DNA from: Oceanospirillaceae bacterium
Lineage (GTDB): Bacteria > Pseudomonadota > Gammaproteobacteria > Pseudomonadales > Oceanobacteraceae
Assembly (NCBI GenBank): GCA_002724925.1
Contig: PBQA01000027.1
Coordinates: forward strand, 62,001-126,000
Reading direction: 5' to 3'
DNA: 64,000 bases
Position numbers and translations under genes: made by a program. A model generated the notes under the pieces. It was not told the DNA's origin. It searched no databases and worked only from the letters and a program-made list of their open reading frames with translations. Positions 1,423-58,306 of this stretch are shown here, piece after piece. The number at the start of each line of letters is the position of its first letter. The first letter of the stretch is position 1.

Positions 1423-2474
1423 TATTTATCCCCCGGTTTCAGACCGCGCTTAGGCTTGCTGTGGCCATAGCTTCGTGGCTGGGTGTAGGCATCAATGAAG
1501 GGGGCAGCAAAATTCATCAGAAGCACAGCGAAGGCGACGGCATCTGGGTAGGCTCCCCATGTTCGGATCACGTAGAGAAGAACTCCGATACCCGCACCGT
1601 AGATCAGTTTTCCCGTGGGGGTTGTCGATGCTGAAACCGGGTCTGTGGCAATGAAGAATGCTCCTAGCATAGTTGCACCACTGAGCAAATGCAGTGACAG
1701 CGGCGTATACAGGTCTTCGTCCCACCCCAGAATCAGTGAGCAGATACTGAGCGCTACGAGCATGGATACGGGAATATGCCAGGTAATGATGCGTCGGGCC
1801 ATCAGGAAAAGACCGCCTGCAAGGAACGCCAGATTGACCCACTCCCAGCCACCGTTCAGCCAGCCGTTAAATGTATTTCGCTGGAGAAGCTCATCAGAGG
1901 TCTCCTTGCTGATGAGGTGTTTATATTGGTCAAGCGGAGTGGCGCCTGTGAATGCGTCAGCTGCTGACGACGATCCCGTAAATATGATGCTCAATGCTTC
2001 GCTGAACCCGGCGATCTCAGATCCAGTGACCTGAAAAGAGGTGACCCAGTTTGTGGTCATCTGTACCGGAAATGAAATCAGTACAAGCGCGTAACCGACC
2101 ATCGCGGGGTTAAACGGGTTATTGCCCATGCCTCCGTATATCTGCTTGGCAAAAATGATGGCGAATGAGGTGGCTAGTACGGTGATCCACCAGGGCGCGA
2201 GAGGAGGTAGCGCAAGGCCTAATAGCAGACCCGTGACCAATGCGGTGTTGTCCTTGAGGAAAAAGCTCACAGGATATTTGCGTAGTTTCAGAACAAGCGC
2301 TTCTGAAAATAACGCTGTAACTACAGCGAGCACCGTATTTATCAAGGTGCCAAAGCCGAAAAACCAGGTCATCACTGCAAGGCCTGGCAGAGTAGCCAGT
2401 GCCACCGTCAGCATGATCCGACTGGTACGGTTGGGCCCGTGAGTATGGGGTGAAGACAGCGTCAGCAGTGCCAT
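1422..2474 (-). CDS. rsxD: electron transport complex subunit RsxD (RnfD)
   Basis: Integral membrane subunit, homologous to NqrB, with about eight to ten hydrophobic helices over 350 residues. The motif [11 protein letters not shown] in the central periplasmic loop is the covalent FMN attachment site in characterised relatives, and SGATML near the C-terminus is a second conserved patch. It starts two bases after the rsxC stop and runs directly into rsxG. The C-terminus is basic and Pro/Gly-rich. There is no sign of disruption. Confidence 0.95.
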
Positions 2475-2476
2475 GG

Positions 2477-4681
2477 TTATACTTCTCCTGTGGTACTGGT
2501 CTGAGCTTCGAAGGCTGCCAGTTTTTCAAGCTGTTTGTTCAGCGCCTTCTCGAGTGCATCGACAGAGTCAAGTTTCTCTGCACGTGCCATTTCCAGGCGC
2601 TCTCTGGCCTTTTCTACACGATCTTTCTGTGCGAGCAGTTTCTTTTGAAGCTGTTCTGCGTCGGGCTTCGTTGCTGTCGCTTCTGTCGGTTTATTATCTG
2701 TGCCAGATTTCAGGGCGGCCTCGTAGGCTGCTTTGGCTTCGGCGACCCGGGACTCTTGTTTCTCTACACCAGTGCGTAGTGCATCCACCGTGTCTGCGCC
2801 TTCCGCTTCAGCATCTTCTAAGCGCTTTCGGGCTGTGTCCAATCGAGCGGCTGCCGTTTCCCACTTTTTTTGCAGGCGCTCAGGGCTGTTTGGATCGCCT
2901 TTGTCAGGGCCCGTTGCAGCGGGGGCGGCTTTAGCGGCTTTCTTTGCTGCAGCAATCTCTTTTGCCAACGTTTTGATCTTGTCCTGAGTCTTAGTCAACG
3001 CAGACTCGAATGCTGGTATTTTATCGGCCATCTCCGGGTTTTCACGGGCAGCCTCCAGCTTTTCTTTCGTTTTAGCAACGGCTGCCTGAGCGGCTGATAA
3101 CTGTTTCTGCAGCTTTTCCAGGTCGGCATCTGTAGTGGGCTCAGTTGCAGTGGACTCAGTTGCAGGAGCCGCTTTTGCTATAGGCGCTTCTTTCTTAGCC
3201 GATTGTGCTTTGGCTGCTGCTTCCGCGCGCGCTTTACGCTTCGCTTCTTTTTCTGCTTTCTCGCGTTCCTGACGCTCAATTCGGGCTTCGTAACGAATTC
3301 GCGCCTGTTCTGCTTTTTCCGCAGCTGCGCGTTCTTCGCGGATGGCGCCCTTCGAGAACCGATAGTATTGAACCAGAGGGATTTCACTCGGGCACACGTA
3401 CGAACAGGCGCCACACTCAATGCAGTCGAACAGGTTGTGTTGCTCTGCTTTATCAAACTCCTGCGCTTTACTGAACCAGTAAAGCTGCTGAGGAAGCAGG
3501 TCAGCTGGACATGCATCAGCACACAAGCCACAACGAATACACGCCATGGCTGGGTTATTTGTCGGTAATTCCTTGTCGGTCGGGGCCAGCAGGCAGTTGG
3601 TTGTCTTTACGACCGGCAACCCAGTGGTCGGCAGTGCAAAGCCCATCATAGGGCCACCCATTACGACGCGCTCACGCTTCGCCGGACGGTAACCACTGAG
3701 AGACAGGAGATGGCTGACTGGCGTACCTAAAAGCACTTCCCAGTTGCCTTTATCTCTGACTGCATCGCCGGTCACTGTCGTAATCCGGCTAATCAGTGGG
3801 CGACCCAGGTCGACGGCATCGGCAATGGCGGCGGCTGTGCCTACATTCTGGCAGACGATACCCAGGCTGGCAGGAATGCCACCGGACGGAACTTCTTTAC
3901 CTGTCAGAATCTGGATCAGCTGCTTTTCACCACCTGATGGGTACTTTGTCGGAATGGTGACAACGTCAATGTGGTGTTCTTCATTGTGCTGAACGAGCGC
4001 GTCTTCTAAGGCTGCTATCGCTTCCGGCTTATTGTCTTCTACGCCGATAAGGCAGCGTTCAGCCCCGAGTATCTGTAGCAGAATCTGAGCACCACGAATC
4101 ACTTCGCTGGCGTGTTCGCGCATCAACATATCGTCAGCCGTGATATAGGGCTCGCATTCGGCACCATTAAGAATCAGAGTGTCGATGTTGTGCTGGCCAG
4201 TATGTAACTTAACAGCGGTAGGAAAGCCTGCTCCGCCCATGCCAGCGATACCACAGTCACGGATACGCTCAATCAGCTTTTCTTTCGGAATATCATCGCA
4301 ATGTTCCAGCCCGAGTGCGTCGCATAGGCCCTGATGCTCGGCCCAGGTCTCTTCGCCATCTGGCTCGATGACGATGCAGGTTTCACTGAGACCGGATGCG
4401 TGAGGTACCTGACGTGCTTCGATGGCGCTGATCTTTCCTGATGTCGGTGCATGAAGAGGTGCCGATACAAAGCCCTCTGGCTCCGCAATGACCTGGCCCT
4501 TCAAAACGCTATCACCGACGGCAACGACAGGATTTGCAGGCGCACCAATGTGCTGATGCAGTGGTAAAACCAGCTCAGCAGGCAGGGAGGCTTTGCGGAT
4601 GGGGCGGCTATTTGATTGGCGTTTATTTTCTGGTGGATGGATACCACCATCAAACTCGTGCAGTTGAATCAGGTGAGTCAT
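2477..4681 (-). CDS. rsxC: electron transport complex subunit RsxC (RnfC), NADH-oxidising subunit
   Basis: Peripheral subunit that accepts electrons from NADH. The 734-residue protein has an N-terminal barrel-sandwich region, a glycine-rich nucleotide/FMN fold around [15 protein letters not shown] (about residues 145-160), then two [4Fe-4S] motifs, [12 protein letters not shown] and [12 protein letters not shown] (about 380-430). The last 280 residues are a charged Ala/Lys/Glu-rich predicted coiled coil, as in E. coli RsxC, containing three diverged repeats of roughly 55-65 residues built around LQKK, RLExAR and DALexal-KQ. The gene overlaps rsxB by four bases (ATGA). Confidence 0.95.
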
Positions 4682-42280: not shown

Positions 42281-44944
42281 TTACTCCACAGCCTCTGCGG
42301 GCTGGTATTTCGCAATAAGAGATTTCAGCTCTGGGATACAGGAGCCGCAGTTAGTACCGCATTTCAGTTCGGCACCTAACTCATCAGCACCGGTGCAGCC
42401 GCCCGCTATCGCTTTTTGAATGGTGTTTTCACCCACCTGGAAACAAGAGCACACGATGGCGCCTTTATCTTCTACTTTGCCAAGCGGGCGTCCGGCCAGA
42501 ATGGCCCGGCGGTCGTGGATGGAAAGCTCTTCCTGTCCAAAAATATCGATTAGCCACTGTCGGCCACTGAAGTCGTAGTCTTTGTGAATAAATAAAACCG
42601 CCTTGAGTTGGTCTCTTTCAATCAGGCACAGGCGATAGTGCAGGTTGGTCGGGTCGCTGAACATGACCCAATGATCGGATTCAAATTGGTTCCTGACCGA
42701 ACGGATAAATTCGACCGGATCGTTCTGCCCACTGATTTCATACATGTGACCCGTGTCAGTGACGTTATAGACCCAGTAGTCTGTATCGAGGTGACCAAGG
42801 TCTTTGCTGGTCAGGAGAAATCCTTCCCACTCGGTTGAAAATACCGCTGCGTTAACATCCGTCATTTTCAGAGCGGGTTGTCCGGATACCGGGTCATTAT
42901 CTTTGTTGATCAGTGCTCCCATCCGGGCCTTACTGGCATAGCGATTTGTCCAGTGCATGGGTACAAAAATCTCTCCCTTGCGCTGAGCGAGATCGCTGCG
43001 AACCTGAGCGCGTACGATAATCTCGCCACGCTCGCTCCATAATCTGACCAGTTTTTTATCTCTTACTCCTAAGCGCATCGCATCTTCAGGATGAAAATCC
43101 GCGTAAGGTTCTGCGATGTGTCGGGCAAGTACAGGCGCTTTTGCGGTTCTGGTCATTGTATGCCAGTGATCCCTTACCCGACCTGTATTCATAGTCAGTC
43201 CGGTCGCCGATGACGTTGGTGATTTCGCAACGACAGGAATGAATTTCGCTTTGCCCGATCTGGTATAGAAATATCCATCGTCATAAAAACGCGGACGACC
43301 GGCAGGGAAGGCGTCGTTGACCGGCCATTGCACAGGAGCCAGTGCATCGTATTGTTCACGGCTCATGTTGGTCAGGCCACTGAGGTCAAAGTCGCGTGTG
43401 CCATTATTTTCAAACGCTGACAGGCGTGCGTGTTCGTCAAAAATTTCAGCCGGATGTTCATAAGGGAATGCTTCTTCGTATCCCAGGCGGCGGGCGACTT
43501 GAGTAATTATCCACCAATCCGGGCGCGCTTCACCCGGAGGGGGCAAGAAGCCTCGTTGACGAGATATACGGCGCTCGGAATTTGTGACAGTACCGTTTTT
43601 CTCTCCCCAGCTCGCTGCGGGCAAGAGCACATGAGCAGCGGCGGTGGTATCAGTATTAGCCATGCAATCAGATACCACGACAAGTTCGCAGTGCTTCATG
43701 GCTTCTTTAACATCGTCAGCATCTGGCATGCTGACCAGTGGGTTCGTGGACATAATCCAGAGGAATTTAATCTTTCCATTTTTTACTTCGTTGAACAGAT
43801 CGACTGCCTTCAGTCCCGGTTTTTCTGCAATGTGTGGTGATTGCCAGAAGCGCCGCACACGATCCCGGTCGGCCGGCGAGAAATCCATATGGGCGGCCAG
43901 CTGATTTGCCAGCCCACCAACTTCTCGCCCGCCCATCGCATTGGGTTGCCCCGTAATTGAAAACGGACAGGCACCAGGCTTGCCTATCCGACCGGTTGCA
44001 AGATGCAGGTTGATAATACTGTTTGCTTTGTCAGTGCCATCAATACTCTGATTAACGCCCTGAGAGTAAAAGGTCACTGTCTTTGGTGTGTCGCGGAACC
44101 AGGCGAAGAAGGTTTCGAGGTCCTGCTGATTTACGTCGGTAATAGCCGCGAGGTCGCTAAAGTCCTGCGCCGCCTTCGATGCCGCCACAAGTGCCTCGCC
44201 AATGTTTTCTGAACACTGTTCAATAAAGTGTGTGTCCAAAGCATTTTGCTGGTGAAGGTAGGTCAGCAGAGCATTAAATAGAGTGGTGTCACTGCCTGGC
44301 TTTATCGGAAGGTGTAAGTCTGCAATATCGCAGGTCGCTGTTTTTCGTGGATCGACCACAACAACCTTCATACCCGGGCGGGCTTTCTTCGCCGCAGCCA
44401 TCCGCTGGAACAGGATCGGATGAGCCCAGGCAGCATTACTGCCAGTGATGACCAGAAGGTCTGCCTGCTCGAGATCTTCGTAACACCCCGGAACGGTATC
44501 ACTGCCGATAGAGCGTTTATAAGAGGCTACGGCCGACGCCATACACAGACGCGAATTGGTATCCATATTCGCACTGCCTATAAAGCCCTTCATCAACTTG
44601 TTGGCGACGTAATAATCTTCTGTGAGAAGCTGGCCTGACCCGTAGAACGCAACCGCTTCCGGACCATGGGTAGAGACTACCTGGCGGATCTTATCGGCGA
44701 CCAGGTTCAGTGCGGTATCCCAATCAGCTGCCTGGCCATTCATTGTCGGGTGTAGCAAACGGTCGGTTTGATCCAGAGTATCGTGCAGCGCAGATCCCTT
44801 AACGCACAGACGCCCGAAATTTGCTGGGTGCGACTTCATTCCAGCGACAGGCGCAATATCCTTCTCGTCGACAGAAATATCCACACCACATCCTACTCCG
44901 CAGTATGGACATGTTGTCTGAACCTGTAGCTTTTTATGACTCAT
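42281..44944 (-). CDS. nasA: assimilatory nitrate reductase catalytic subunit
   Basis: Reduces nitrate to nitrite in the cytoplasm. 887 residues: N-terminal [4Fe-4S] motif CPYCGVGCGVD with a distal Cys in RLCVKGSAL; molybdopterin oxidoreductase domain (about 60-560), then a molybdopterin dinucleotide-binding domain (about 600-720, RDHWHTMTRT). The C-terminus is a BFD-like [2Fe-2S] domain, with CSCFQVGENTIQKA and CGTNCGSCIPELK. No Tat signal, as expected for the assimilatory enzyme. Electrons probably come from the FAD reductase encoded at 52257-53504. ATG 44944 used; GTG 44956 is possible. Expression is expected to be controlled by the leader terminator at 44993-45026. Confidence 0.94.
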   Translation of the reverse strand: MSHKKLQVQTTCPYCGVGCGVDISVDEKDIAPVAGMKSHPANFGRLCVKGSALHDTLDQTDRLLHPTMNGQAADWDTALNLVADKIRQVVSTHGPEAVAFYGSGQLLTEDYYVANKLMKGFIGSANMDTNSRLCMASAVASYKRSIGSDTVPGCYEDLEQADLLVITGSNAAWAHPILFQRMAAAKKARPGMKVVVVDPRKTATCDIADLHLPIKPGSDTTLFNALLTYLHQQNALDTHFIEQCSENIGEALVAASKAAQDFSDLAAITDVNQQDLETFFAWFRDTPKTVTFYSQGVNQSIDGTDKANSIINLHLATGRIGKPGACPFSITGQPNAMGGREVGGLANQLAAHMDFSPADRDRVRRFWQSPHIAEKPGLKAVDLFNEVKNGKIKFLWIMSTNPLVSMPDADDVKEAMKHCELVVVSDCMANTDTTAAAHVLLPAASWGEKNGTVTNSERRISRQRGFLPPPGEARPDWWIITQVARRLGYEEAFPYEHPAEIFDEHARLSAFENNGTRDFDLSGLTNMSREQYDALAPVQWPVNDAFPAGRPRFYDDGYFYTRSGKAKFIPVVAKSPTSSATGLTMNTGRVRDHWHTMTRTAKAPVLARHIAEPYADFHPEDAMRLGVRDKKLVRLWSERGEIIVRAQVRSDLAQRKGEIFVPMHWTNRYASKARMGALINKDNDPVSGQPALKMTDVNAAVFSTEWEGFLLTSKDLGHLDTDYWVYNVTDTGHMYEISGQNDPVEFIRSVRNQFESDHWVMFSDPTNLHYRLCLIERDQLKAVLFIHKDYDFSGRQWLIDIFGQEELSIHDRRAILAGRPLGKVEDKGAIVCSCFQVGENTIQKAIAGGCTGADELGAELKCGTNCGSCIPELKSLIAKYQPAEAVE

Positions 44945-44992
44945 AGGGCTATCCACATAGTTGGCTTGCTACTCTCAAGCCTTTTCGTGAGC

Positions 44993-45026
44993 AAAAAAAA
45001 ACGCCCGCGGAGTTACCCGCGAGCGC
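44993..45026 (-). terminator. leader terminator (attenuator) of nasA
   Basis: On the minus strand a 9-bp GC-rich stem (CGCTCGCGG / CCGCGGGCG, one T-G pair, loop GTAACT) is followed by nine T residues. It lies inside the untranslated leader, about 50 bases before the nasA start, so transcription would stop unless the hairpin is prevented. Its 5' arm is shared with the hairpin at 45021-45034. Confidence 0.88.
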
Positions 45027-45073
45027 CAATGCTCATAAACACAACACAAAACGACGACACCAACGTTGGTGTC
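45021..45073 (-). promoter_or_regulatory. tandem hexaloop hairpins of ANTAR-responsive type in the nasA leader
   Basis: Read on the minus strand, hairpin 1 (45056-45073) is GACACC-AACGTT-GGTGTC and hairpin 2 (45021-45034) is GAGC-ATTGGC-GCTC. Both six-base loops have A at position 1 and G at position 4, the invariant bases of RNA hairpins bound by ANTAR antiterminators such as NasR, NasT and EutV. Hairpin 2 uses the same bases as the 5' arm of the terminator, so the two structures exclude each other. A linker of about 21 nucleotides separates them. Confidence 0.78.
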
Positions 45074-45447: not shown

Positions 45448-45464
45448 TTGGCACTCATATTGCT
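45448..45464 (+). promoter_or_regulatory. sigma-54 promoter of nirBD
   Basis: TTGGCAC-TCATA-TTGCT, a full match to the -24/-12 consensus with correct spacing. Predicted start near 45475, about 98 bases before nirB. Confidence 0.85.
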
Positions 45465-45485
45465 AAAGCCTATTCGATACTGTTT

Positions 45486-45527
45486 GCTGCAACGGCGTAG
45501 CGGGTAAGTAGAGCAACGATGCACTTA
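45486..45527 (+). promoter_or_regulatory. two A1/G4 hexaloop hairpins in the nirB leader
   Basis: Hairpin 1 is GCTGC-AACGGC-GTAGC (45486-45501, one G-T pair). Hairpin 2 is TAAGT-(AGA bulge)-GC-AACGAT-GC-ACTTA (45505-45527). Both loops have A1 and G4, as in the nasA and nrtA leaders. No terminator follows; instead an AAGGAG ribosome site starts at 45531. If real, control would be on translation or on an unseen structure. Hairpin 2 is weak because of its bulge. Confidence 0.45.
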
Positions 45528-45545
45528 TTTAAGGAGACAAGAAGA

Positions 45546-45557
45546 ATGTCTGAATAA
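45546..45557 (+). CDS. three-codon minicistron upstream of nirB
   Basis: ATG TCT GAA TAA, preceded by AAGGAG (45531-45536) at a nine-base spacing, a better ribosome site than that of nirB itself (GAGAG). It is in the same frame as nirB and ends 15 bases before the nirB ATG, so termination followed by reinitiation is possible. It may instead be chance. Confidence 0.35.
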   Translation: MSE

Positions 45558-45572
45558 GAGAGAGTCATCGCC

Positions 45573-48137
45573 ATGAGTAAGAAGCGCATCATAGTTGTTG
45601 GTAACGGTATGGTTGGCCACAACTTCCTCGCCACTATGGCCGAATCTGAGAAAGCCTCAGAATTCGAATTAATCACCTTTTCCGAAGAACCTCGCCTTGC
45701 GTACGACCGCGTACAGCTGAGCAAATACTTTTCAGGGGCGACCGCCGCTGACCTGGCACTCACCACAGAATCTGAATACGACGATTCCGGTATTACCTAT
45801 TTAAAGAATGAGAAAGTTGTCGAAATTGACGCCGACAACAAAACCATTACGACCTCAACCGGGCGTATAGAAGGATACGACAAACTGGTGCTGGCAACGG
45901 GTTCCTATCCATTTGTTCCACCGATTCCGGGTAAGGATCAGGATCACTGCCTTGTTTATCGTACGATTGAAGATCTTGAAGCAATTTCTGCGTCCGCTGA
46001 AGTATCCAAAACGGGTGTTGTTGTTGGTGGCGGTCTGCTTGGCCTCGAGGCAGCAAATGCACTTAAAGAAGCCGGCCTTGATACCCACGTTGTTGAATTC
46101 GCTCCGCGCTTAATGGCCGTGCAGCTCGATGAAGGCGGCGGTAATCTGCTGCGACATAAAATCGAATCTCTGGGTGTGTCAGTACACACTGAAAAAAACA
46201 CCAAAGAAATTGTCGCTGGCGAAGAATGCCGCTATCGCATGAACTTTGCCGACGGCTCACACCTTGAAACAGATATGATTCTGTTCTCTGCAGGTATTCG
46301 CCCTCAGGATGAACTTGCGCGACAGTTCGGCATCGACGTCGGCGAACGCGGCGGTATTGTCATTAACGATTATTGTCAGACCTCAGAAGAAGACATCTAT
46401 GCAATTGGCGAATGTGCGCTCTGGGACAGTAAAATTTTCGGTCTGGTCGCACCGGGCTACCAGATGGCAAAAGTCACAGCGGCTCACATCACAGACACCC
46501 TGGTAAATCTGAAAACCCCGGAACTTGCTTTTAAGGGTGCTGATATGAGCACCAAGCTTAAGCTGCTGGGCGTGGATGTCGCATCGATAGGTGATGCGCA
46601 TGGCCATACGGCGGGTTCTCAGTCGTTTGTATTCAGTGACGACATCGAAGAAGTCTACAAGCGACTTATTGTTTCTGCCGACGGTAAAAAACTGCTTGGC
46701 GCCGTGCTGGTGGGTGAAACTGAATCCTACGGTACTTTGCTGCAACTCATGCTTAACGATATGGATATCCCGGGTAATCCAGCTGCACTTATTCTGCCAG
46801 CACTGGGTGACGAAGCGCCTGCAGGCCTGGGGGTAACTGCATTACCCGACACGGCTCAGATCTGTTCATGTTATGACGTGTCGAAGGGGGATATTGCTTC
46901 GGCAGTGCAGGGTGGTTGCTGCACCATGGGCGACATAAAAGGTGCGACTAAGGCGACTACCGGCTGTGGCGGTTGTGCTGCTTTGACTAAGCAGGTGATG
47001 GATTCTGAACTCGCAGCCCTTGGCGTTGAAGTAAATAATGATCTCTGTGAGCACTTCGCTTATACCCGTGCTGAACTCGCTGATATTGTTCGCGTGAAAG
47101 GATATGGCAGCTTTGCAGAAGTGCTGAAAGGGCACGGCAAAGGCCATGGCTGTGAAATCTGTAAGCCAACCATTGGTTCGATCCTGGCATCTTATAAAAA
47201 CGAGTATGTTCTGAAAGATGATCTGATGCCTCTGCAGGATACTAATGACATCTTCCTTGGCAACATGCAGAAAGACGGTACTTACTCTGTCGTACCTCGT
47301 GTTCCAGGCGGCGAAATTACGCCTGATAAGCTGATTGCCATTGGTGAAGTTGCTAAAGAGTTTGATCTCTACACCAAAATTACTGGTGGGCAGCGTATCG
47401 ATTTATTTGGTGCACAACTCCACGAGTTGCCGAAAATCTGGGAGAAGCTGATTGCAGCGGGCCTTGAAACAGGTCATGCCTACGGTAAAGCGCTCCGTAC
47501 CGTTAAGTCCTGTGTAGGTAGCACCTGGTGTCGTTATGGTGTGCTTGATTCTGTCTCCATGGCGGTGGCGCTGGAGAATCGCTATAAGGGGCTTCGCGCA
47601 CCACACAAAATCAAATTCGGCGTTTCTGGATGTACTCGTGAATGTGCCGAGGCACAGTCGAAAGACATTGGTGTGATTGCAACAGAAAGTGGTTGGAACC
47701 TTTATGTATGCGGCAATGGTGGCATGCGTCCACGTCACGCGGACCTGTTTGCGACAGACCTGGACGATGAAACGCTGATCAAATACATCGATCGGGTATT
47801 GATGTTCTATGTACGTACAGCCGATCGCCTGCAGCGTACATCTGTGTGGCTCGAAAACCTCGAAGGAGGCCTCGACTACCTGCGTGAAGTTGTTGTCGAT
47901 AATAAGCTGGATATCTGTGGTGAGCTCGAAAATGATATGACCCGCGTTGTGGGCACCTATCAGTGCGAATGGAAAACCACGGTTGAATCTCCAGAAAAGC
48001 TCAAGCGCTTCAGTCACTTCATTAATGCTGCAGAAGAAGATAACAATCTTCTGTATGTGCGTGAGCGTGGACAGCGACGACCAGCGACAGACAGTGAACG
48101 TATTGAGCTGGTTGAGTTAACCACCGAGAAACACTGA
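45573..48137 (+). CDS. nirB: NAD(P)H nitrite reductase large subunit
   Basis: Reduces nitrite to ammonium with six electrons from NAD(P)H. 854 residues: FAD/NAD-binding domain (about 1-310, starting IIVVGNGMVGHNF), two BFD-like segments (CSCYDVSKGDI with CGGC, about 430-480; CEICKPTIGSI, about 525), nitrite/sulphite reductase ferredoxin-like half-domain (about 560-630), and a sirohaem/[4Fe-4S] domain with CVGSTWC and CTRECAE, whose four cysteines ligate the cluster. First gene of nirB-nirD-narK. Sirohaem comes from the CobA pathway encoded divergently. Confidence 0.96.
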   Translation: MSKKRIIVVGNGMVGHNFLATMAESEKASEFELITFSEEPRLAYDRVQLSKYFSGATAADLALTTESEYDDSGITYLKNEKVVEIDADNKTITTSTGRIEGYDKLVLATGSYPFVPPIPGKDQDHCLVYRTIEDLEAISASAEVSKTGVVVGGGLLGLEAANALKEAGLDTHVVEFAPRLMAVQLDEGGGNLLRHKIESLGVSVHTEKNTKEIVAGEECRYRMNFADGSHLETDMILFSAGIRPQDELARQFGIDVGERGGIVINDYCQTSEEDIYAIGECALWDSKIFGLVAPGYQMAKVTAAHITDTLVNLKTPELAFKGADMSTKLKLLGVDVASIGDAHGHTAGSQSFVFSDDIEEVYKRLIVSADGKKLLGAVLVGETESYGTLLQLMLNDMDIPGNPAALILPALGDEAPAGLGVTALPDTAQICSCYDVSKGDIASAVQGGCCTMGDIKGATKATTGCGGCAALTKQVMDSELAALGVEVNNDLCEHFAYTRAELADIVRVKGYGSFAEVLKGHGKGHGCEICKPTIGSILASYKNEYVLKDDLMPLQDTNDIFLGNMQKDGTYSVVPRVPGGEITPDKLIAIGEVAKEFDLYTKITGGQRIDLFGAQLHELPKIWEKLIAAGLETGHAYGKALRTVKSCVGSTWCRYGVLDSVSMAVALENRYKGLRAPHKIKFGVSGCTRECAEAQSKDIGVIATESGWNLYVCGNGGMRPRHADLFATDLDDETLIKYIDRVLMFYVRTADRLQRTSVWLENLEGGLDYLREVVVDNKLDICGELENDMTRVVGTYQCEWKTTVESPEKLKRFSHFINAAEEDNNLLYVRERGQRRPATDSERIELVELTTEKH

Positions 48138-50103: not shown

Positions 50104-51864
50104 ATGACGTCGTCAGGCAACAAACGTAATCTCGAAGTGATATTTGGAGGTTTCAGTACAGCGGGTAACAAGCCTGAAAATCAGGATGCCTTTGCAGCCT
50201 GGCAGCCGTCGACAAACAGTGCCCGTTATAAAGGAATTGCCTGTTGTATTGCAGACGGCGTGAGTTGTAGCGATAACGCCCAACAGGCAAGCACCACCAG
50301 TGTTACTCATTTTCTAAATGATTATTACAGCACGCCGGATAGTTGGGATGTAAAAACGGCAGCCGGAAAAGTGCTGAGTTCCCTCAATGCCTGGCTGTAT
50401 CATCATGGACAGCAAGCGAGTGCGCGGCATAACTCTCTGGTAACAACTCTTAGCTCGGTCGTGCTTAAATCGAGCACTCTTCATGTCTTTCATGTGGGCG
50501 ACTCGCGTGTATACCGCTTAAGAAACGGTTCTCTGGAATGCCTGACCCGCGATCATACTCATCAACATGGGAATGGTCAGGATTACCTCAGTCGCGCTAT
50601 GGGCATGGACACTCACCTCGAAGTTGACTACCTGAACCAGCCGCTGGAAAGCGACGATGTTCTCCTTATGACGACAGATGGAGTTCACGGTTTTCTTACA
50701 GATAAGCGGATGCGCGACACTCTGATCAAGGAACTGACATCACAGAGCACACAAATTCATTTCGAGAAATGTGCTCAATCTCTGGTTGATCAGGCGTTGA
50801 ATAATGGCAGTAACGATAACCTGACCGCCATGATTATCCGGGTCGAAAGTCTGCCTGAAAAGAATATTGAGGAAACTCATCGGGTATTAACTGAGCGCGT
50901 TATTCCCCCCGTGTTGAATACCGGAGATTGTATTGATCATTACGAGGTTGAGCAGGTTGTCTATGCAGGAACCCGCAGTCATTTATACCGTGTACTGAAC
51001 AGACGTAATCAGAAACGTTATGTGCTCAAGGCACCCTCGCTGAACTTTGAGGAAGACCTAGTCTATCTAGAGGGGTTTGTGCGTGAACAGTGGGTGGGGG
51101 CACGTGTTGATCATGCGAATGTTATGAAAATTCTACCGCCCGAACCACACGCTCGTTTTATGTATCATATCTGTGAGCTGATTGAAGGAGAGTCCCTGCG
51201 TCAGTGGATGAACGATCACCCACAACCGGAGTTGAGCAGTGTAAGAAACATTATTGAGCAGATAGTGATGGCCTTGCGGGCGTTTCAACGCATGGGCATG
51301 GTACATCGCGATCTGAAACCCGAGAACGTCATGATCACCGCTCAGGGGCAGGTGAAACTGATTGATTTTGGTACGGTGCAAGTGAAGGGCCTGGCAGAAG
51401 TTACTAGTCCTGTGGAAGAAGACTGCCCGGTTGGCTCAGTAAATTATATTGCTCCTGAGTACGTTATGTACGGTACGGCGACAACTCAGAGTGATCTGTT
51501 CTCACTAGGAGTGATGGTGTATGAGATGCTTTGTGGAGAACAGCCTTTTCGTATGTCTCATATCCACAGAACGGGAGCACGATCTGTTTCCGAGTGGAAG
51601 TATCAACCGCTGCGGGAAGTACGCTCTGATATTCCTTTATGGCTGGATCTGGCTATCGAAAAATCTTGCCACCCTGATATTCGCGCCAGACATTCCGCAC
51701 TGTCCGAATTCTGGACTGATCTGATAAAGCCGAATGAAGCTCTGGTGAGTACGTATTCTGGCAAGCCTCTGATCGAACGTCACGCGGATAAAGTATGGCC
51801 AGCAGTATCGGCCATACTTATGCTGGTGGTTATACTTCAGTCCTGGTTGCTATTGTCAGAGTAA
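50104..51864 (+). CDS. bifunctional PP2C phosphatase / Ser-Thr protein kinase fusion
   Basis: 586 residues. N-terminal PP2C-type phosphatase (about 15-258) with acidic metal motifs NQDAF, IADGVS, HVGDSRVYRL, MTTDGVHGF and GSNDNLTAMI. Then a Hanks-type kinase (about 280-545) with Lys in YVLKAPS, catalytic loop HRDLKPENVM, DFGTVQ and GSVNYIAPEY. A C-terminal hydrophobic helix (about 563-584) anchors it in the membrane. All catalytic residues look intact. The same fusion occurs beside nirBD and the nitrate transporter in Pseudomonas, which suggests a role in nitrate assimilation; its substrate is unknown. Confidence 0.92.
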   Translation: MTSSGNKRNLEVIFGGFSTAGNKPENQDAFAAWQPSTNSARYKGIACCIADGVSCSDNAQQASTTSVTHFLNDYYSTPDSWDVKTAAGKVLSSLNAWLYHHGQQASARHNSLVTTLSSVVLKSSTLHVFHVGDSRVYRLRNGSLECLTRDHTHQHGNGQDYLSRAMGMDTHLEVDYLNQPLESDDVLLMTTDGVHGFLTDKRMRDTLIKELTSQSTQIHFEKCAQSLVDQALNNGSNDNLTAMIIRVESLPEKNIEETHRVLTERVIPPVLNTGDCIDHYEVEQVVYAGTRSHLYRVLNRRNQKRYVLKAPSLNFEEDLVYLEGFVREQWVGARVDHANVMKILPPEPHARFMYHICELIEGESLRQWMNDHPQPELSSVRNIIEQIVMALRAFQRMGMVHRDLKPENVMITAQGQVKLIDFGTVQVKGLAEVTSPVEEDCPVGSVNYIAPEYVMYGTATTQSDLFSLGVMVYEMLCGEQPFRMSHIHRTGARSVSEWKYQPLREVRSDIPLWLDLAIEKSCHPDIRARHSALSEFWTDLIKPNEALVSTYSGKPLIERHADKVWPAVSAILMLVVILQSWLLLSE

Positions 51865-53578: not shown

Positions 53579-54730
53579 TCAGAACTTAGCCTGAACCCAT
53601 GCCCACATTTTAGTGGTATCTACGCCGGTATCACCCGCAGAGTAAAACGCCGCTTTTGCACCTACAGTGAAGGTGTCATCGAGTTTCTTAACTGCCAGAA
53701 GATCCAGTTCGTTACCGAAATCAACGTCATCTTCAACAGAGTTGAAAGTGTGGTAAAAACCGACCAGTTTCACACCAGAGACTTTAGTTACTGCCTTAAC
53801 GTAGGTATCGCTAAGGCCGAGACCGCCGGTGTTAGCATTAGTATTCAGGAACTTATCCGCCCAACCATTAAACTTGTGTTTGGTTGCCAACGGAGTTTCA
53901 AATGCTGCATTACCATCATCGCTACCCAGTGTTTCATTACCCAGTGCCAATGTTACGCCAGATACCACGGCGCCACCCTCAAGGGCAAAGTAGTTAGTGT
54001 CTGCAGTTTCCGTGCTCTGAGTAGCATACTCGGCCTTATAGATGAGTTTAGTGCCATCCATATCATAGCTACCGTTGTAGCTAAGGCCGAATGTGTCACG
54101 TTGACTATTTTCGGTATCATCGTCTTCTAGCAGGTAAGCGTACGCAGTGATTTTACCGGTACCTACTTTATAACCAGCGTTTAGTAAATGGCTTGTCGTA
54201 TCGGCGTCAAACCTCGGCAAGATACCATTGACCTGATCAATGAAAGAGTAGTGCAAAGAAAGCTCATCTTTAGAATAGGTCAGCGTAACAGCATCAAACG
54301 TTTGCTCGTTTGCGCGCCAGCCTACGTTACCAACAAAACGTGCGCCGTCGAGAATAATACGCTGGCGGCCGACGATTGCACCGAATTCGTCTTTTTTGTA
54401 GCTGACCTGGGCCCGGTTCCATTCGCGGGTTTCAGGATCTGCAATAGCATCATAGCCTGCCTTTTCGGGAGCGTAATCGTCAATCAGAGGCTGAACAATT
54501 TCGTATTCTACAAGAGCCGAGAACCCTTCGTAATTGAGCGTTTCAAAGCCGACTGCAGCGTCAGTAATCAGGCCTGTCGCGGCGTCATTATCAGTCGCAT
54601 CGTCAGTATCATTGGTCTCGTAGCGTACTTTGACATCAGCGTAGGCATTGCCGTACTCAGTTTCATACGCAGATGCACCCAGAGTGGCAGTCCCCAATGC
54701 GATCGCCAGTAACGTCTTCTTAGCTTGCAT
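53579..54730 (-). CDS. outer-membrane porin encoded in the nitrate transport operon
   Basis: 383 residues: signal peptide (MQAKKTLLAIALGTATLGASA) and a barrel of alternating beta strands ending WAWVQAKF with C-terminal Phe, the outer-membrane insertion signal. Features resemble alginate-export or OprD-like porins (VGRQRIILDGARFVGNVGWR is characteristic). The sequence is rich in Asp and Asn with few cysteines. It follows nrtD by 40 bases, so it probably admits nitrate across the outer membrane; specificity is inferred from context only. Confidence 0.82.
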   Translation of the reverse strand: MQAKKTLLAIALGTATLGASAYETEYGNAYADVKVRYETNDTDDATDNDAATGLITDAAVGFETLNYEGFSALVEYEIVQPLIDDYAPEKAGYDAIADPETREWNRAQVSYKKDEFGAIVGRQRIILDGARFVGNVGWRANEQTFDAVTLTYSKDELSLHYSFIDQVNGILPRFDADTTSHLLNAGYKVGTGKITAYAYLLEDDDTENSQRDTFGLSYNGSYDMDGTKLIYKAEYATQSTETADTNYFALEGGAVVSGVTLALGNETLGSDDGNAAFETPLATKHKFNGWADKFLNTNANTGGLGLSDTYVKAVTKVSGVKLVGFYHTFNSVEDDVDFGNELDLLAVKKLDDTFTVGAKAAFYSAGDTGVDTTKMWAWVQAKF

Positions 54731-54770: not shown

Positions 54771-55640
54771 TTAAGCAACTTCACCGGTCTTTTTATCGAC
54801 CTTGTCAGCATTACTATCGTCGGAGTCGGCAGCCTTCTTAGCGGGCGCATCTGTGTCCGGCTTTCTCTGTTTTTCATACAGAAAACTAAGAACCTGCTGA
54901 CGGTATCTGTTGTATTGCGGATCGTCGGCAAGTTGAATTCGGTTGCGTGGGCGTTCAAGTTCTACGTCCATGATTTCGCCAATGGTGGCAGCAGGGCCAT
55001 TGGTCATCATCACAATACGATCAGACAGCAATACTGCCTCGTCGACATCGTGGGTAATCATGATGACGGTGTTGTTCAGGTCTTTCTGAATGTCCATCAG
55101 AGAGTCCTGCAGGTGAGCACGTGTCAGGGCATCAAGTGCGCCGAAAGGCTCGTCCATTAGCAGTACCTGAGGTTCCATTGACAGGGCACGAGCGATACCA
55201 ACACGCTGCTTCATACCACCGGAAATTTCATCCGGGCGTTTGTGCATGGCGTGGCTCATGTGTACCAGTTCGAGGTTATGCTCAATCCACTCACGCATTT
55301 CCGCTTTGGACTTCTGACCTTTAAAAACGCGCTTTACAGCGAGTTCAACGTTCTGATAAGCGGTCAGCCATGGCAGAAGAGAGTGGTTCTGGAACACAAC
55401 TGCACGCTCAGGGCCAGGTTCATTCACTTCTTTTCCGCTCAGCACGACACCGCCCTGAGTGGCTTGATAAAGACCAGCCACAATATTCAGTACGGTAGAC
55501 TTACCGCAGCCTGAGTGGCCGATCAACGAAATGAATTCGCCTTTTTTAATTTTCAGGTTCACATTCTGAAGCGCACAGAAAGGACCTTTCGGTGTTGGAA
55601 ATTCGATACCAACATCTGATAGTTCGAGTAATGGGTTCAT
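54771..55640 (-). CDS. nrtD: nitrate ABC transporter ATPase
   Basis: 289-residue ABC ATPase of the nitrate/sulphonate/taurine group. Walker A GHSGCGKST, signature SGGMKQRVGIARALS, Walker B LLMDEPFGALD, and the H-loop ITHDVDEAV. The C-terminal extension is Lys/Asp-rich. It lacks the fused binding-protein domain of cyanobacterial NrtC, so the system is NrtABD. Starts 27 bases after nrtB. Confidence 0.92.
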   Translation of the reverse strand: MNPLLELSDVGIEFPTPKGPFCALQNVNLKIKKGEFISLIGHSGCGKSTVLNIVAGLYQATQGGVVLSGKEVNEPGPERAVVFQNHSLLPWLTAYQNVELAVKRVFKGQKSKAEMREWIEHNLELVHMSHAMHKRPDEISGGMKQRVGIARALSMEPQVLLMDEPFGALDALTRAHLQDSLMDIQKDLNNTVIMITHDVDEAVLLSDRIVMMTNGPAATIGEIMDVELERPRNRIQLADDPQYNRYRQQVLSFLYEKQRKPDTDAPAKKAADSDDSNADKVDKKTGEVA

Positions 55641-55667: not shown

Positions 55668-56672
55668 TTATCGTGTAGCCGCTGATTTATCCCACGACAC
55701 TTTGCGCTGAATCATCAGCATGACGCGGTCAAGTAAGAAGCCAATCAAACCAATGGTGATAACGGCGACCATAATCCGGCCTAAGGAGTCAGAAGAGCCG
55801 TTCTGGAACTCGTCCCAGACGAATTTTCCAAGACCCGGGTTCTGAGCCAGCATTTCGGCTGCGATCAGTACCATCCAGGCAATACCCAGAGAGAGACGCA
55901 GACCGGTAAATACCATTGGGATGGATGAAGGAAGTACGATCTTACGAACATGCTCCATATAGCTCAGGCGCAATACCTGTGACACATTCACGAGATCTTT
56001 TGGAATAGAAGCCACACCCACTGCGGTATTAATAACGGTTGGCCACAGGCAGCAGAGCATGACGGTAATCATCGAAGTCACGAACGACTTGGGTACCATT
56101 GGATCGTCTGATACATAGAGAGCAGATACCACCATAGTGACAATAGGGAGCCAGGCTAACGGTGATACTGGCTTAAAGATCTGGATAACAGGGTTGAACG
56201 CGCTGTAGAGGTTGGCGCTCAGTCCGATAACGATACCGAATGGAATAGCGATCAGAGACGCCAGAATAAAGCCACTCAATACAGTAACAAGGCTGGTTCC
56301 GATCTGGTCGATATAGGTTGGCTTACCTGTGTAGTCCCGGATTTTAGGAACGTACGTCGGGTCTTGTTTAACGCGGGCAGCGTTACGTTTTTCCTGACGC
56401 TCATAAAAAGCGTCTGCTTTTTCGCGTTCAGTAAAGTGTTCGGTTAGCAGACCTTTGGTCTGGGTAACAACGTCACCTGGTCCGGGGAATTGCCCCAGAG
56501 AGGTATTGATATTACTGGCGGCGGCTTGCCAGATCATCAGAAAAACCAATAAGCCAGCCAGTGGCAGACCAATAGTTTTAATAATCGTCTGGATATTTCC
56601 AGAAACATCTTCGCCTTTCGCGATACTTACGAAGGGTGAAATCCAGGCAATATTCGACAGCGCAGTAGTCAT
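55668..56672 (-). CDS. nrtB: nitrate ABC transporter permease
   Basis: 334 residues with about six to seven helices. The permease domain (about 135-325) has the coupling loop VSQVLRLSYMEHVRKIVLPS and ASIPKDLV. The N-terminal 130 residues contain one helix and a charged loop (residues about 80-125), as in other NrtB proteins. It follows nrtA by 100 bases, a gap that holds a stable hairpin. Confidence 0.92.
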   Translation of the reverse strand: MTTALSNIAWISPFVSIAKGEDVSGNIQTIIKTIGLPLAGLLVFLMIWQAAASNINTSLGQFPGPGDVVTQTKGLLTEHFTEREKADAFYERQEKRNAARVKQDPTYVPKIRDYTGKPTYIDQIGTSLVTVLSGFILASLIAIPFGIVIGLSANLYSAFNPVIQIFKPVSPLAWLPIVTMVVSALYVSDDPMVPKSFVTSMITVMLCCLWPTVINTAVGVASIPKDLVNVSQVLRLSYMEHVRKIVLPSSIPMVFTGLRLSLGIAWMVLIAAEMLAQNPGLGKFVWDEFQNGSSDSLGRIMVAVITIGLIGFLLDRVMLMIQRKVSWDKSAATR

Positions 56673-56772: not shown

Positions 56773-58155
56773 TCAGATTTTCTCGGCGCCTTTCAGGCCG
56801 ATTTCGAACTTCTTCAGGTACTCATTAGGCTTGCTACCGTCATAGACGATATTGTCGATGAAGCCTTTCTGAGCTGGTTTGAAGCCTGTCTCGGTAGCGA
56901 AATCCGGGAAGTCTTTCGCATCAAGCTTGCCTTCTTTGATCAGCTCTTTAGCGGCAGAAGCGTAGATGTCCGGGCGATAAACTTTCTTCGCTGTTTCCAT
57001 GAACCAGTCATCTGATTTTTCTTCAGAAATCTGACCCCAGCGACGCATCTGAGTGAGGTACCAGATTGCATCTGAGTAGTACGGATAGGTCGCGTTATAA
57101 CGGAAGAACACGTTGAAGTCCGGTACTTCGCGCTTATCGCCTTTCTCGTATTCGAAGGTGCCCGTCATTGAGTTAGCAATAACGTCGTAGTCGGCGCCAA
57201 CGTACTGAGATTTAGACAGGATTTTTACTGCTTCCGGGCGGTTGGCGTTGTTGTCAGCATCCAACCATGCCGCTGCGCGAATCATCGCTTTAACCACTTT
57301 CTTGTGAGTAATTGGGTATTTGTCTGCCCACTGTTTGCTCACACCAAATACTTTCTCTGGGTTGTTTTTCCAGATTTCGTAGTCGGTAATAACAGGTACG
57401 CCGATGCCTTTAAATACAGCCTGCTGGTTCCATGGTTCGCCCACGCAGTAACCGTAAATGGTGCCGGCTTCCATCGTTGCAGGCATTTGCGGTGGTGGCG
57501 TGACAGAAAGCAGCGCATCAGCATCAATCTGGCCAGAGGTGTCACCTTTGTGCGGTGCGTAGTAACCAGGGTGAATACCGCCTGCTGCCAACCAGTAACG
57601 CAGTTCATAGTTGTGCGTTGAAACCGGGAACACCATACCCATGTTGAATGGCTTGCCGTCGGCTTTATATTTCTCAACGACTGGCTTAAGTGCATCTGCT
57701 TTGATCGGATGAACTGGCTTGCCATCTTCGTGCGGGATATGTTCTTTCATCTGGCTCCAGATATCGTTCGATACCGTGATGCCATTACCGTTGAGGTCCA
57801 TGCTGAATGCAGTGATGATGTGTGCCTGAGTACCGAAGCCAATGGTTGCGCCCAGAGGTTGGCCGGCCAGCATGTGTGCACCGTCGAGCTGACCATCGAT
57901 AACGCGGTCGAGCAGGACTTTCCAGTTAGCCTGAGCTTCCAGAGTGACGTACAGACCTTCTTCTTCGAAATAACCTTTTTCATAGGCGACGGCCAGAGGA
58001 GCCATGTCGGTCAGCTTGATAAAACCAAACTTCAGTTCTTCTTTTTCTGCCCATTCTTCAGCGGACACCAGTGGCGCTGACATGGTTGCCATACCCGCGG
58101 CCAATACCAGTGCGCTTTTCACAAACGTGCGGCGCAGAGTTTTGATTCCTCGCAT
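56773..58155 (-). CDS. nrtA: nitrate ABC transporter substrate-binding protein, Tat-type signal
   Basis: Binds nitrate or nitrite in the periplasm. 460 residues; the N-terminus has a twin-arginine motif LRRTFVKS followed by a hydrophobic stretch ending VSA. The body is NrtA/CmpA-like: [33 protein letters not shown] and the C-terminal [12 protein letters not shown]-like region. Start at 58155 follows an AAGGA site; an upstream TTG at 58179 lies inside the leader terminator. Expression is expected to require antitermination of the leader at 58178-58277. NasS, the nitrate sensor partner of NasT, resembles NrtA, but NasS lacks a signal peptide. Confidence 0.93.
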
Positions 58156-58177: not shown

Positions 58178-58228
58178 AAAAAAAGGCGCTACGACAGCAC
58201 TGCTATTAGCAGGAGTCGAAAGCGCCTT
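58178..58228 (-). terminator. leader terminator (attenuator) of nrtA
   Basis: On the minus strand the outer arms AAGGCGCT / AGCGCCTT enclose inner CGAC / GTCG and TGCT / AGCA pairings and are followed by seven T residues (+ strand A at 58178-58184). It lies about 25 bases before the nrtA start, within the untranslated leader. Confidence 0.85.
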
Positions 58229-58277
58229 TGCTTTGTAAATCTTGATTTGAAAATTGCGAACTTCGCCATTGAAGTTC
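58219..58277 (-). promoter_or_regulatory. tandem hexaloop hairpins of ANTAR-responsive type in the nrtA leader
   Basis: On the minus strand hairpin 1 (58258-58277) is GAACTTC-AATGGC-GAAGTTC and begins about two bases from the predicted transcription start. Hairpin 2 (58219-58234) is AAAGC-AAAGGC-GCTTT. Both loops have A1 and G4. Hairpin 2 shares GGCGCT with the terminator 5' arm, so the two compete. The arrangement matches that of the nasA leader, although the stem sequences differ, so the shared loop pattern is unlikely to reflect simple duplication. Confidence 0.82.
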
Positions 58278-58289
58278 TGAATTGCTTAA

Positions 58290-58306
58290 TACAAGCACCG
58301 TGCCAA
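58290..58306 (-). promoter_or_regulatory. sigma-54 promoter of nrtABD
   Basis: TTGGCAC-GGTGC-TTGTA on the minus strand: perfect -24 element, -12 element with one change. Predicted start near 58279, immediately before leader hairpin 1. Confidence 0.75.

Follow-up and report, generated by a model that had tools for sequence, protein, structure and literature searches.

When a leader in front of a nitrate uptake gene seems to repeat, element by element, the RNA switch in front of a nitrate reductase gene, two questions have to be asked: is it truly a second copy of that switch, and which protein would read it? The case arises in the 64,000-nucleotide stretch of an Oceanospirillaceae genome analysed here (the window), where the initial annotation had placed such leaders upstream of nrtA and nasA (Table 1). 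The nrtA start codon was placed at MRGIK (58155), and the best named match of its product among the 80 loci listed, from which the records of the source genome itself were possibly omitted, is that of Thalassolituus marinus (91% identity). The naming of nasA rests on neighbouring genes and on model matches that all stay under their cut-offs, the top one being to a formate dehydrogenase alpha model, followed by NasC and NasA models. The two leaders had been called unlinked, which is wrong: the nasA leader (44993-45073) lies about 13 kb from the nrtA leader in one nitrate cluster, and the two belong to separate transcripts.

Table 1. Features of the nitrate cluster, in window coordinates
Feature	Position	Strand	Basis
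sigma-54-like promoter of nrtA, TGGCACGGTGCTTGT (-24/-12), TGGCAC-N5-TTGT	58291-58305	-	sequence
nrtA leader hairpin P1, GAACTTC-AATGGC-GAAGTTC, 7 pairs	58258-58277	-	sequence, fold, covariation
P1-P2 linker of nrtA leader, 23 nt	58235-58257	-	sequence
nrtA leader hairpin P2 (antiterminator), AAAGC-AAAGGC-GCTTT, 5 pairs	58219-58234	-	sequence
nrtA intrinsic terminator (stem 58182-58229, seven Ts 58178-58184)	58178-58229	-	sequence, fold
nrtA (nasF-like), nitrate ABC transporter substrate-binding protein	56773-58155	-	PF13379, E 1e-98
nrtB permease	55668-56672	-	best match TIGR01183, under that model's cut-off
nrtC/D ATPase	54771-55640	-	TIGR01184, over cut-off
sigma-54-like promoter of nirB, TGGCACTCATATTGCT	45449-45464	+	sequence
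nirB leader P1, GCTGC-AACGGC-GTAGC	45486-45501	+	sequence, covariation
nirB leader P2-like element, GC-AACGAT-GC, two pairs, no terminator	45513-45522	+	alignment
Shine-Dalgarno-like AAGGAG and mini-ORF ATG TCT GAA TAA, upstream of nirB	45531-45557	+	sequence
nasA leader P1, GACACC-AACGTT-GGTGTC	45056-45073	-	sequence, covariation
nasA leader P2, TGAGC-ATTGGC-GCTCG	45020-45035	-	sequence
nasA leader terminator, overlapping P2	44993-45027	-	sequence
nasA-type assimilatory nitrate reductase catalytic subunit	42281-44956	-	sub-cut-off model matches and neighbours

Several other features of the window deserve mention. A gene for an alginate-export-type porin (53579-54730, minus strand) lies inside the cluster; nirB of a Pseudoalteromonas plasmid (L265) has a gene annotated as alginate export family for its neighbour, an adjacency that suggests a nitrate porin. 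An annotated bifunctional kinase/phosphatase gene of the same plasmid adjoins a formate/nitrite transporter gene and, in the window, what looks from its translation like a phosphatase/kinase fusion (50104-51864, plus strand) lies downstream of a NarK-type transporter gene. At gathering thresholds, an Rfam search of the whole window returned a sole match, to the cspA thermoregulator (RF01766; 40953-41407, plus strand), and none to an ANTAR leader family.

The description of the nrtA leader between 58178 and 58306 of the minus strand proved correct throughout. The seven-pair hairpin P1 is present near the predicted sigma-54 start, which by a hand count from the sigma-54-like site falls 2-3 nt ahead of it; the -12 element of this promoter is imperfect (TTGT instead of TTGC). 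Likewise, P2 overlaps the 5' arm of a terminator with a seven-T tail, and the two share 11 nt and so exclude each other. Both hairpins have six-base loops with A in the first position (A1) and G in the fourth (G4). Folded by itself, the leader RNA adopts P1 and the terminator (-36 kcal/mol, z -4.88), and none of 200 shuffles is equally stable. Judging from this anatomy and from the comparisons that follow, the nrtA leader is very probably a nasF-type ANTAR antitermination switch, opened by the NIT-ANTAR protein NasR in the presence of nitrate or nitrite.

Could two such leaders have arisen by chance? The initial annotation had deemed this unlikely, and the scans bear it out. A strict detector that combines two A1/G4 hexaloop hairpins with an overlapping terminator, run over both strands of the whole window, picks out the nasA and nrtA leaders and no other site; in five whole-window shuffles it stays silent. 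A looser detector was applied to upstream regions of relatives, 103 for nrtA and 30 for nasA, as left from 110 and 31 loci after removal of duplicates and of upstream stretches shorter than 250 bases. It is positive on 53 and 22 of them, respectively, i.e. on 75 of 133, versus 1 of 1330 shuffles; several of the 53 nrtA positives, the majority of them from beyond the family, look doubtful with their odd P1, and the detector is silent on the other 50 nrtA regions, Alteromonas loci included. An earlier, stricter script had been positive on 27 of 110 nrtA and 19 of 31 nasA regions.

The kinship of the two leaders can be judged from covariance models. With a model made from nasA leaders only (R3), the nrtA leader ranks second in the entire source genome (3.97 Mb) with E 4e-5 and 32.9 bits, the next match there being at E 0.29 and 18.2 bits. 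The proposal that nrtA repeats the nasA switch, with A1, G4 and the terminator overlap retained, is upheld. Over eight genomes, the best match of this model outside the nrtA and nasA leaders (E 0.008, 24 bits) comes from G004, a genome without an ANTAR protein. A joint model (R1), which by construction contains the nrtA and nasA leaders of this genome, finds only these two below E 1 genome-wide; above E 1 it gives two more matches (E 2.5 and 6.2), of which one falls on the nasA leader read from the opposite strand and the other elsewhere.

The pairing of P1 is borne out by covariation. In the alignment of 19 nrtA leaders from the family, 18 of them distinct, six of the seven P1 pairs show two-sided changes, and the whole-structure covariation score is 0.505, with shuffles averaging 0.141 and slid structures reaching no more than 0.169; the count of two-sided pairs as such is equalled by 76 of 500 shuffles, and this measure has no advantage over its control. 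In P2 the inner two pairs are invariant, the third shows two-sided changes and the outer two are frequently unformed. For nasA, four of the six P1 pairs change on both sides and the covariation score lies above all 500 shuffles, the measure of further pair types being matched by 499 of the 500. A1, G4 and the C:G closing pairs of the P1 and P2 loops are invariant in both the nrtA (19/19) and the nasA alignments, and the NasR SELEX consensus given in the text of PMC7496416 agrees with these features of the nrtA leaders. The nrtA alignment took in 19 of 25 leaders (near-identical rows, one with a long linker and the unusual L119 were omitted), the nasA alignment 16 of 24 (near-identical and long-linker rows omitted) and that of nirB, discussed below, 23 of 30 (two near-identical rows and five without the motif omitted); two further alignments took in 30 of 49 and 23 of 26 leaders.

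The initial annotation had also named a loss of A1 or G4 in close relatives as grounds for refutation. For nrtA no such loss was encountered, and the proposal was not refuted: hairpins with A1/G4 loops occupy the expected position in each of the 29 genomes examined from the family that have both an ANTAR protein and nrtA, a retention that is partly built in because the scripts themselves search for A1 and G4, its independent part being the presence of such hairpins at the right place at all. Under the strict rule, 23 of the 29 nrtA regions pass, 21 of them correctly and two (G002, G028) with a wrong P1; the six that fail (G003, G014, G015, G031, G032, G043) carry the motif according to other scripts or to reading, and the leaders of G002, G003, G028 and G040 were established outside the main script for relatives. 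Among the exceptions, P1 has only three pairs in G040 and one mismatch in G028 (read by eye), and P2 has two pairs in G003. For nasA, 23 of 30 ANTAR-carrying genomes pass, the failures including a five-base P1 loop in G029, an unclear P1 in G016 and G at the first position of the P2 loop in G003. Shuffled regions pass in 0 of 700 (nrtA), 0 of 760 (nasA) and 1 of 740 (nirB) cases.

In genomes without an ANTAR protein, the motif was found in none of six nrtA, eight nasA and six nirB regions. The Fisher P values for the association of motif and ANTAR protein (5.7e-4 for nrtA, 1.3e-4 for nasA and 4.0e-4 for nirB) make the case look stronger than it is, since the ANTAR-less genomes all belong to one genus and the co-loss may be a single event. 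This absence bears on the view that nrtA merely has a constitutive promoter-proximal terminator, with the two hairpins incidental to it. The terminator is indeed strong and is favoured by the isolated fold; on the other side, P1 covaries although it lies outside the terminator, the loop positions stay invariant despite changing stems, the excess of real regions over shuffles is large with the looser detector, and the motif is missing from the examined relatives that have no ANTAR protein. A constitutive terminator is thus extremely unlikely to be the whole story. We give equally little credit to a role of the hairpins in the stability or translation of the nrtA RNA in place of transcription termination, a reading for which one could cite the translation-acting ANTAR RNAs described, in the text of PMC8164766, for actinobacteria, as well as the Shine-Dalgarno-like sequence that directly follows the nrtA terminator. 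Against it stand two observations: in those nrtA leaders of the family that were detected, P2 overlaps the terminator's 5' arm, and 56 of 61 upstream regions (family nrtA together with nasA from all sources) contain a terminator-like site.

Which protein would read these RNAs? The source genome, the assembly of which is 99.96% complete, yields a single ANTAR match (E 1.5e-20). It is a NasR homologue of the NIT-ANTAR type (423 aa; PF08376 with E 5e-52, PF03861), encoded on another contig (C6, 33761-35029; L255, 3759-5030), and its best match by sequence in the PDB is Klebsiella NasR (4akk, E 8e-55). The phmmer alignment was read by hand in the numbering of PMC7496416, with an offset of 27 deduced from residues that match. 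Of the amino acids that contact RNA, R340, K345, K347, R366 and N373 are conserved, and Y takes the place of W362, so that RNA binding looks intact. The residues E191, R193 and Q194, which are autoinhibition partners on the NIT side in Klebsiella, align with T, Q and D; autoinhibition may accordingly not be the same in every detail, but a shift of the alignment in the NIT region could also account for the mismatches.

A switch of the ANTAR type might, alternatively, be read by a different regulator, such as a NasT-like protein. Relatives give this idea some substance: G028, of the same genus, encodes a REC-ANTAR NasT (L254, 3182-3799) and NasS (1996-3189) beside nrtA, lacks a NIT-ANTAR protein and nevertheless retains the nrtA, nasA and nirB leaders, and four genomes of another genus encode both NasR- and NasT-type proteins. 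For the source genome it is very unlikely, given that the only ANTAR match in this nearly complete assembly is NIT-ANTAR and that an NrtA query uncovers no NasS-like protein there, the sole match besides NrtA being weak (E 7e-5). NasR stays the preferred reader. Since G028 keeps all three leaders with NasT in place of NasR, the leader RNAs seem to persist through changes of their reader protein; counter to a simple swap of readers, a third genus includes four genomes with NasT only in which the nrtA leader is present and those of nasA and nirB are absent.

NasF of Klebsiella is an NrtA-class binding protein. Hence the nasF leader, the classical target of NasR, corresponds to the nrtA leader, and a switch at nrtA is less surprising than it was first presented to be. 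The nasF leader has a sigma-54 promoter directly upstream of P1; at nrtA the sigma-54-like site in this place has the imperfect -12 element. As far as the published descriptions at hand go, the NasR-nasF system of Klebsiella oxytoca (nasFEDCBA) is alike in its NIT-ANTAR regulator, in the leader placed before the nrtA homologue, in the A1/G4 hexaloops and in the overlap of P2 with the terminator. It differs in having one leader for one operon, whereas here nrtA, nasA and nirB form separate transcripts with leaders of their own and nasR is found on another contig. In other words, the system would be the known nasF/NasR antitermination, split over separate transcripts. A Pantoea plasmid with nasR beside a gene of the NrtA family carries the same kind of leader, with the loops AACGGC and AAAGGC. 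At the Pseudoalteromonas NasR locus, the detector found no dual-loop leader upstream of porin/nirB or of the formate/nitrite transporter gene; one hexaloop (AATGGC) adjoins a terminator upstream of the latter.

In the nasF leader, according to the accounts in PMC3369936 and PMC7496416, nitrate-bound NasR stabilises P2 and thereby prevents the terminator from forming. By this analogy, the following cycle can be envisaged. Under nitrogen shortage, NtrC and sigma-54 would start the transcript at P1. If nitrate is lacking, the predicted fold would prevail, with the 5' arm of the terminator paired with its 3' arm, and the polymerase would stop before nrtA. With nitrate or nitrite, NasR would bind the P1 and P2 loops through A1 and G4 and hold P2, so that the terminator could not form and nrtABC would be transcribed. 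The same NasR would act on the nasA leader, and uptake and reduction would thus open together. We infer binding, the nitrate response and NtrC/sigma-54 initiation here on top of the observed anatomy, conservation, covariation and regulator gene. The EutV work (PMC8934654, in the portion consulted) describes binding of one hexaloop at a time and strong limits on spacing, which, set against the 33 to 73 nt between the loops of different nrtA leaders, calls for caution about the mechanism.

A third element lies between the nasA and nrtA leaders, upstream of nirB (45449-45573, plus strand). A dual-loop element occurs in 27 of the 37 nirB regions examined from the family, and a TGGCA-N6-TTG match precedes nirB in 30 of 30 loci. 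Five of six P1 pairs show two-sided changes; 25 of 31 ANTAR-carrying genomes pass the rule, with a weaker P1 in G016 and G018, and the loops are 23-26 nt apart. The pattern GC-AA.G..-GC is present in all 23 aligned rows, which were chosen by that pattern. The third pair of P2 is unformed in 23 of 23, and with two pairs only the element is, by the published definition, not a standard member of the ANTAR dual-hexaloop class. A terminator was found in none of 27 leaders. Next come a Shine-Dalgarno-like sequence and a mini-ORF. The latter runs to exactly three sense codons in 24 of the 27, with 14 different sequences, and to two, five and eight codons in the others. In the source genome, the nirB leader is the sole match of the nirB model better than E 1 (the next is at E 2.0); among 293 genomes of the order, searched with stricter filters under which weak matches may drop out, accepted hits are confined to eight, all of this family. 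Two matches in G292 were rejected, one of which, when read, falls in GCAAAGGC tandem repeats; these repeats (L263, about 1450-1540) mimic the hexaloop model.

How would such a leader work? Sequestration of the Shine-Dalgarno sequence was considered and rejected, as the pairing partners vary by species and several sites are open; folding revealed no conserved sequestering structure over the ribosome site, a few rows (L167 and L168 among them) having a mis-assigned Shine-Dalgarno sequence. The most economical guess is that the leader acts directly on how the mini-ORF and nirB are translated. More broadly, and only tentatively, one nitrate-sensing ANTAR protein may operate two kinds of switch, with nrtA and nasA controlled by antitermination and nirB by a terminator-less dual loop beside the ribosome site of a mini-ORF that feeds nirB translation, and the lineages may have swapped the reader (NasR or NasT) and left the RNAs unchanged; this picture is perhaps somewhat short of probable.

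Parts of it have precedents. In Enterococcus faecalis, as described in PMC3369931 and PMC3369936, one ANTAR protein of the EutV/EutW system reads several dual-hexaloop leaders; unlike here, it is a two-component regulator of ethanolamine genes, with little tolerance of spacing (PMC8934654). The NasT-NalA leader of Pseudomonas nirBD, as outlined in PMC12830290, resembles the nirB leader in its sigma-54 start, its ANTAR protein and its nitrite reductase operon and differs in employing NasT with NasS and a terminating hairpin, which the nirB leader here lacks. Ramesh et al. 2012 (PMC3369931) had already proposed, in the text available, ANTAR regulons of several operons for nitrogen genes and mentioned hits without terminators near ribosome binding sites; the term nrtA is absent from its main text. 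A search of the literature, mostly of the main texts of non-subscription papers, gave no account of these Thalassolituus leaders among the matches listed. New here are the conserved terminator-less nirB leader with its three-codon mini-ORF and the NasT genome of the same genus that keeps all three leaders.

Taken together, this marine gammaproteobacterium would have divided its NasR switch among transcripts that are wired separately, for nitrate uptake, for nitrate reduction and, probably, for nitrite reduction. With leaders that do and do not contain a terminator, the set suits the study of one ANTAR protein on different RNA layouts, and among the relatives NasR and NasT can be compared in a natural setting on near-identical leaders.
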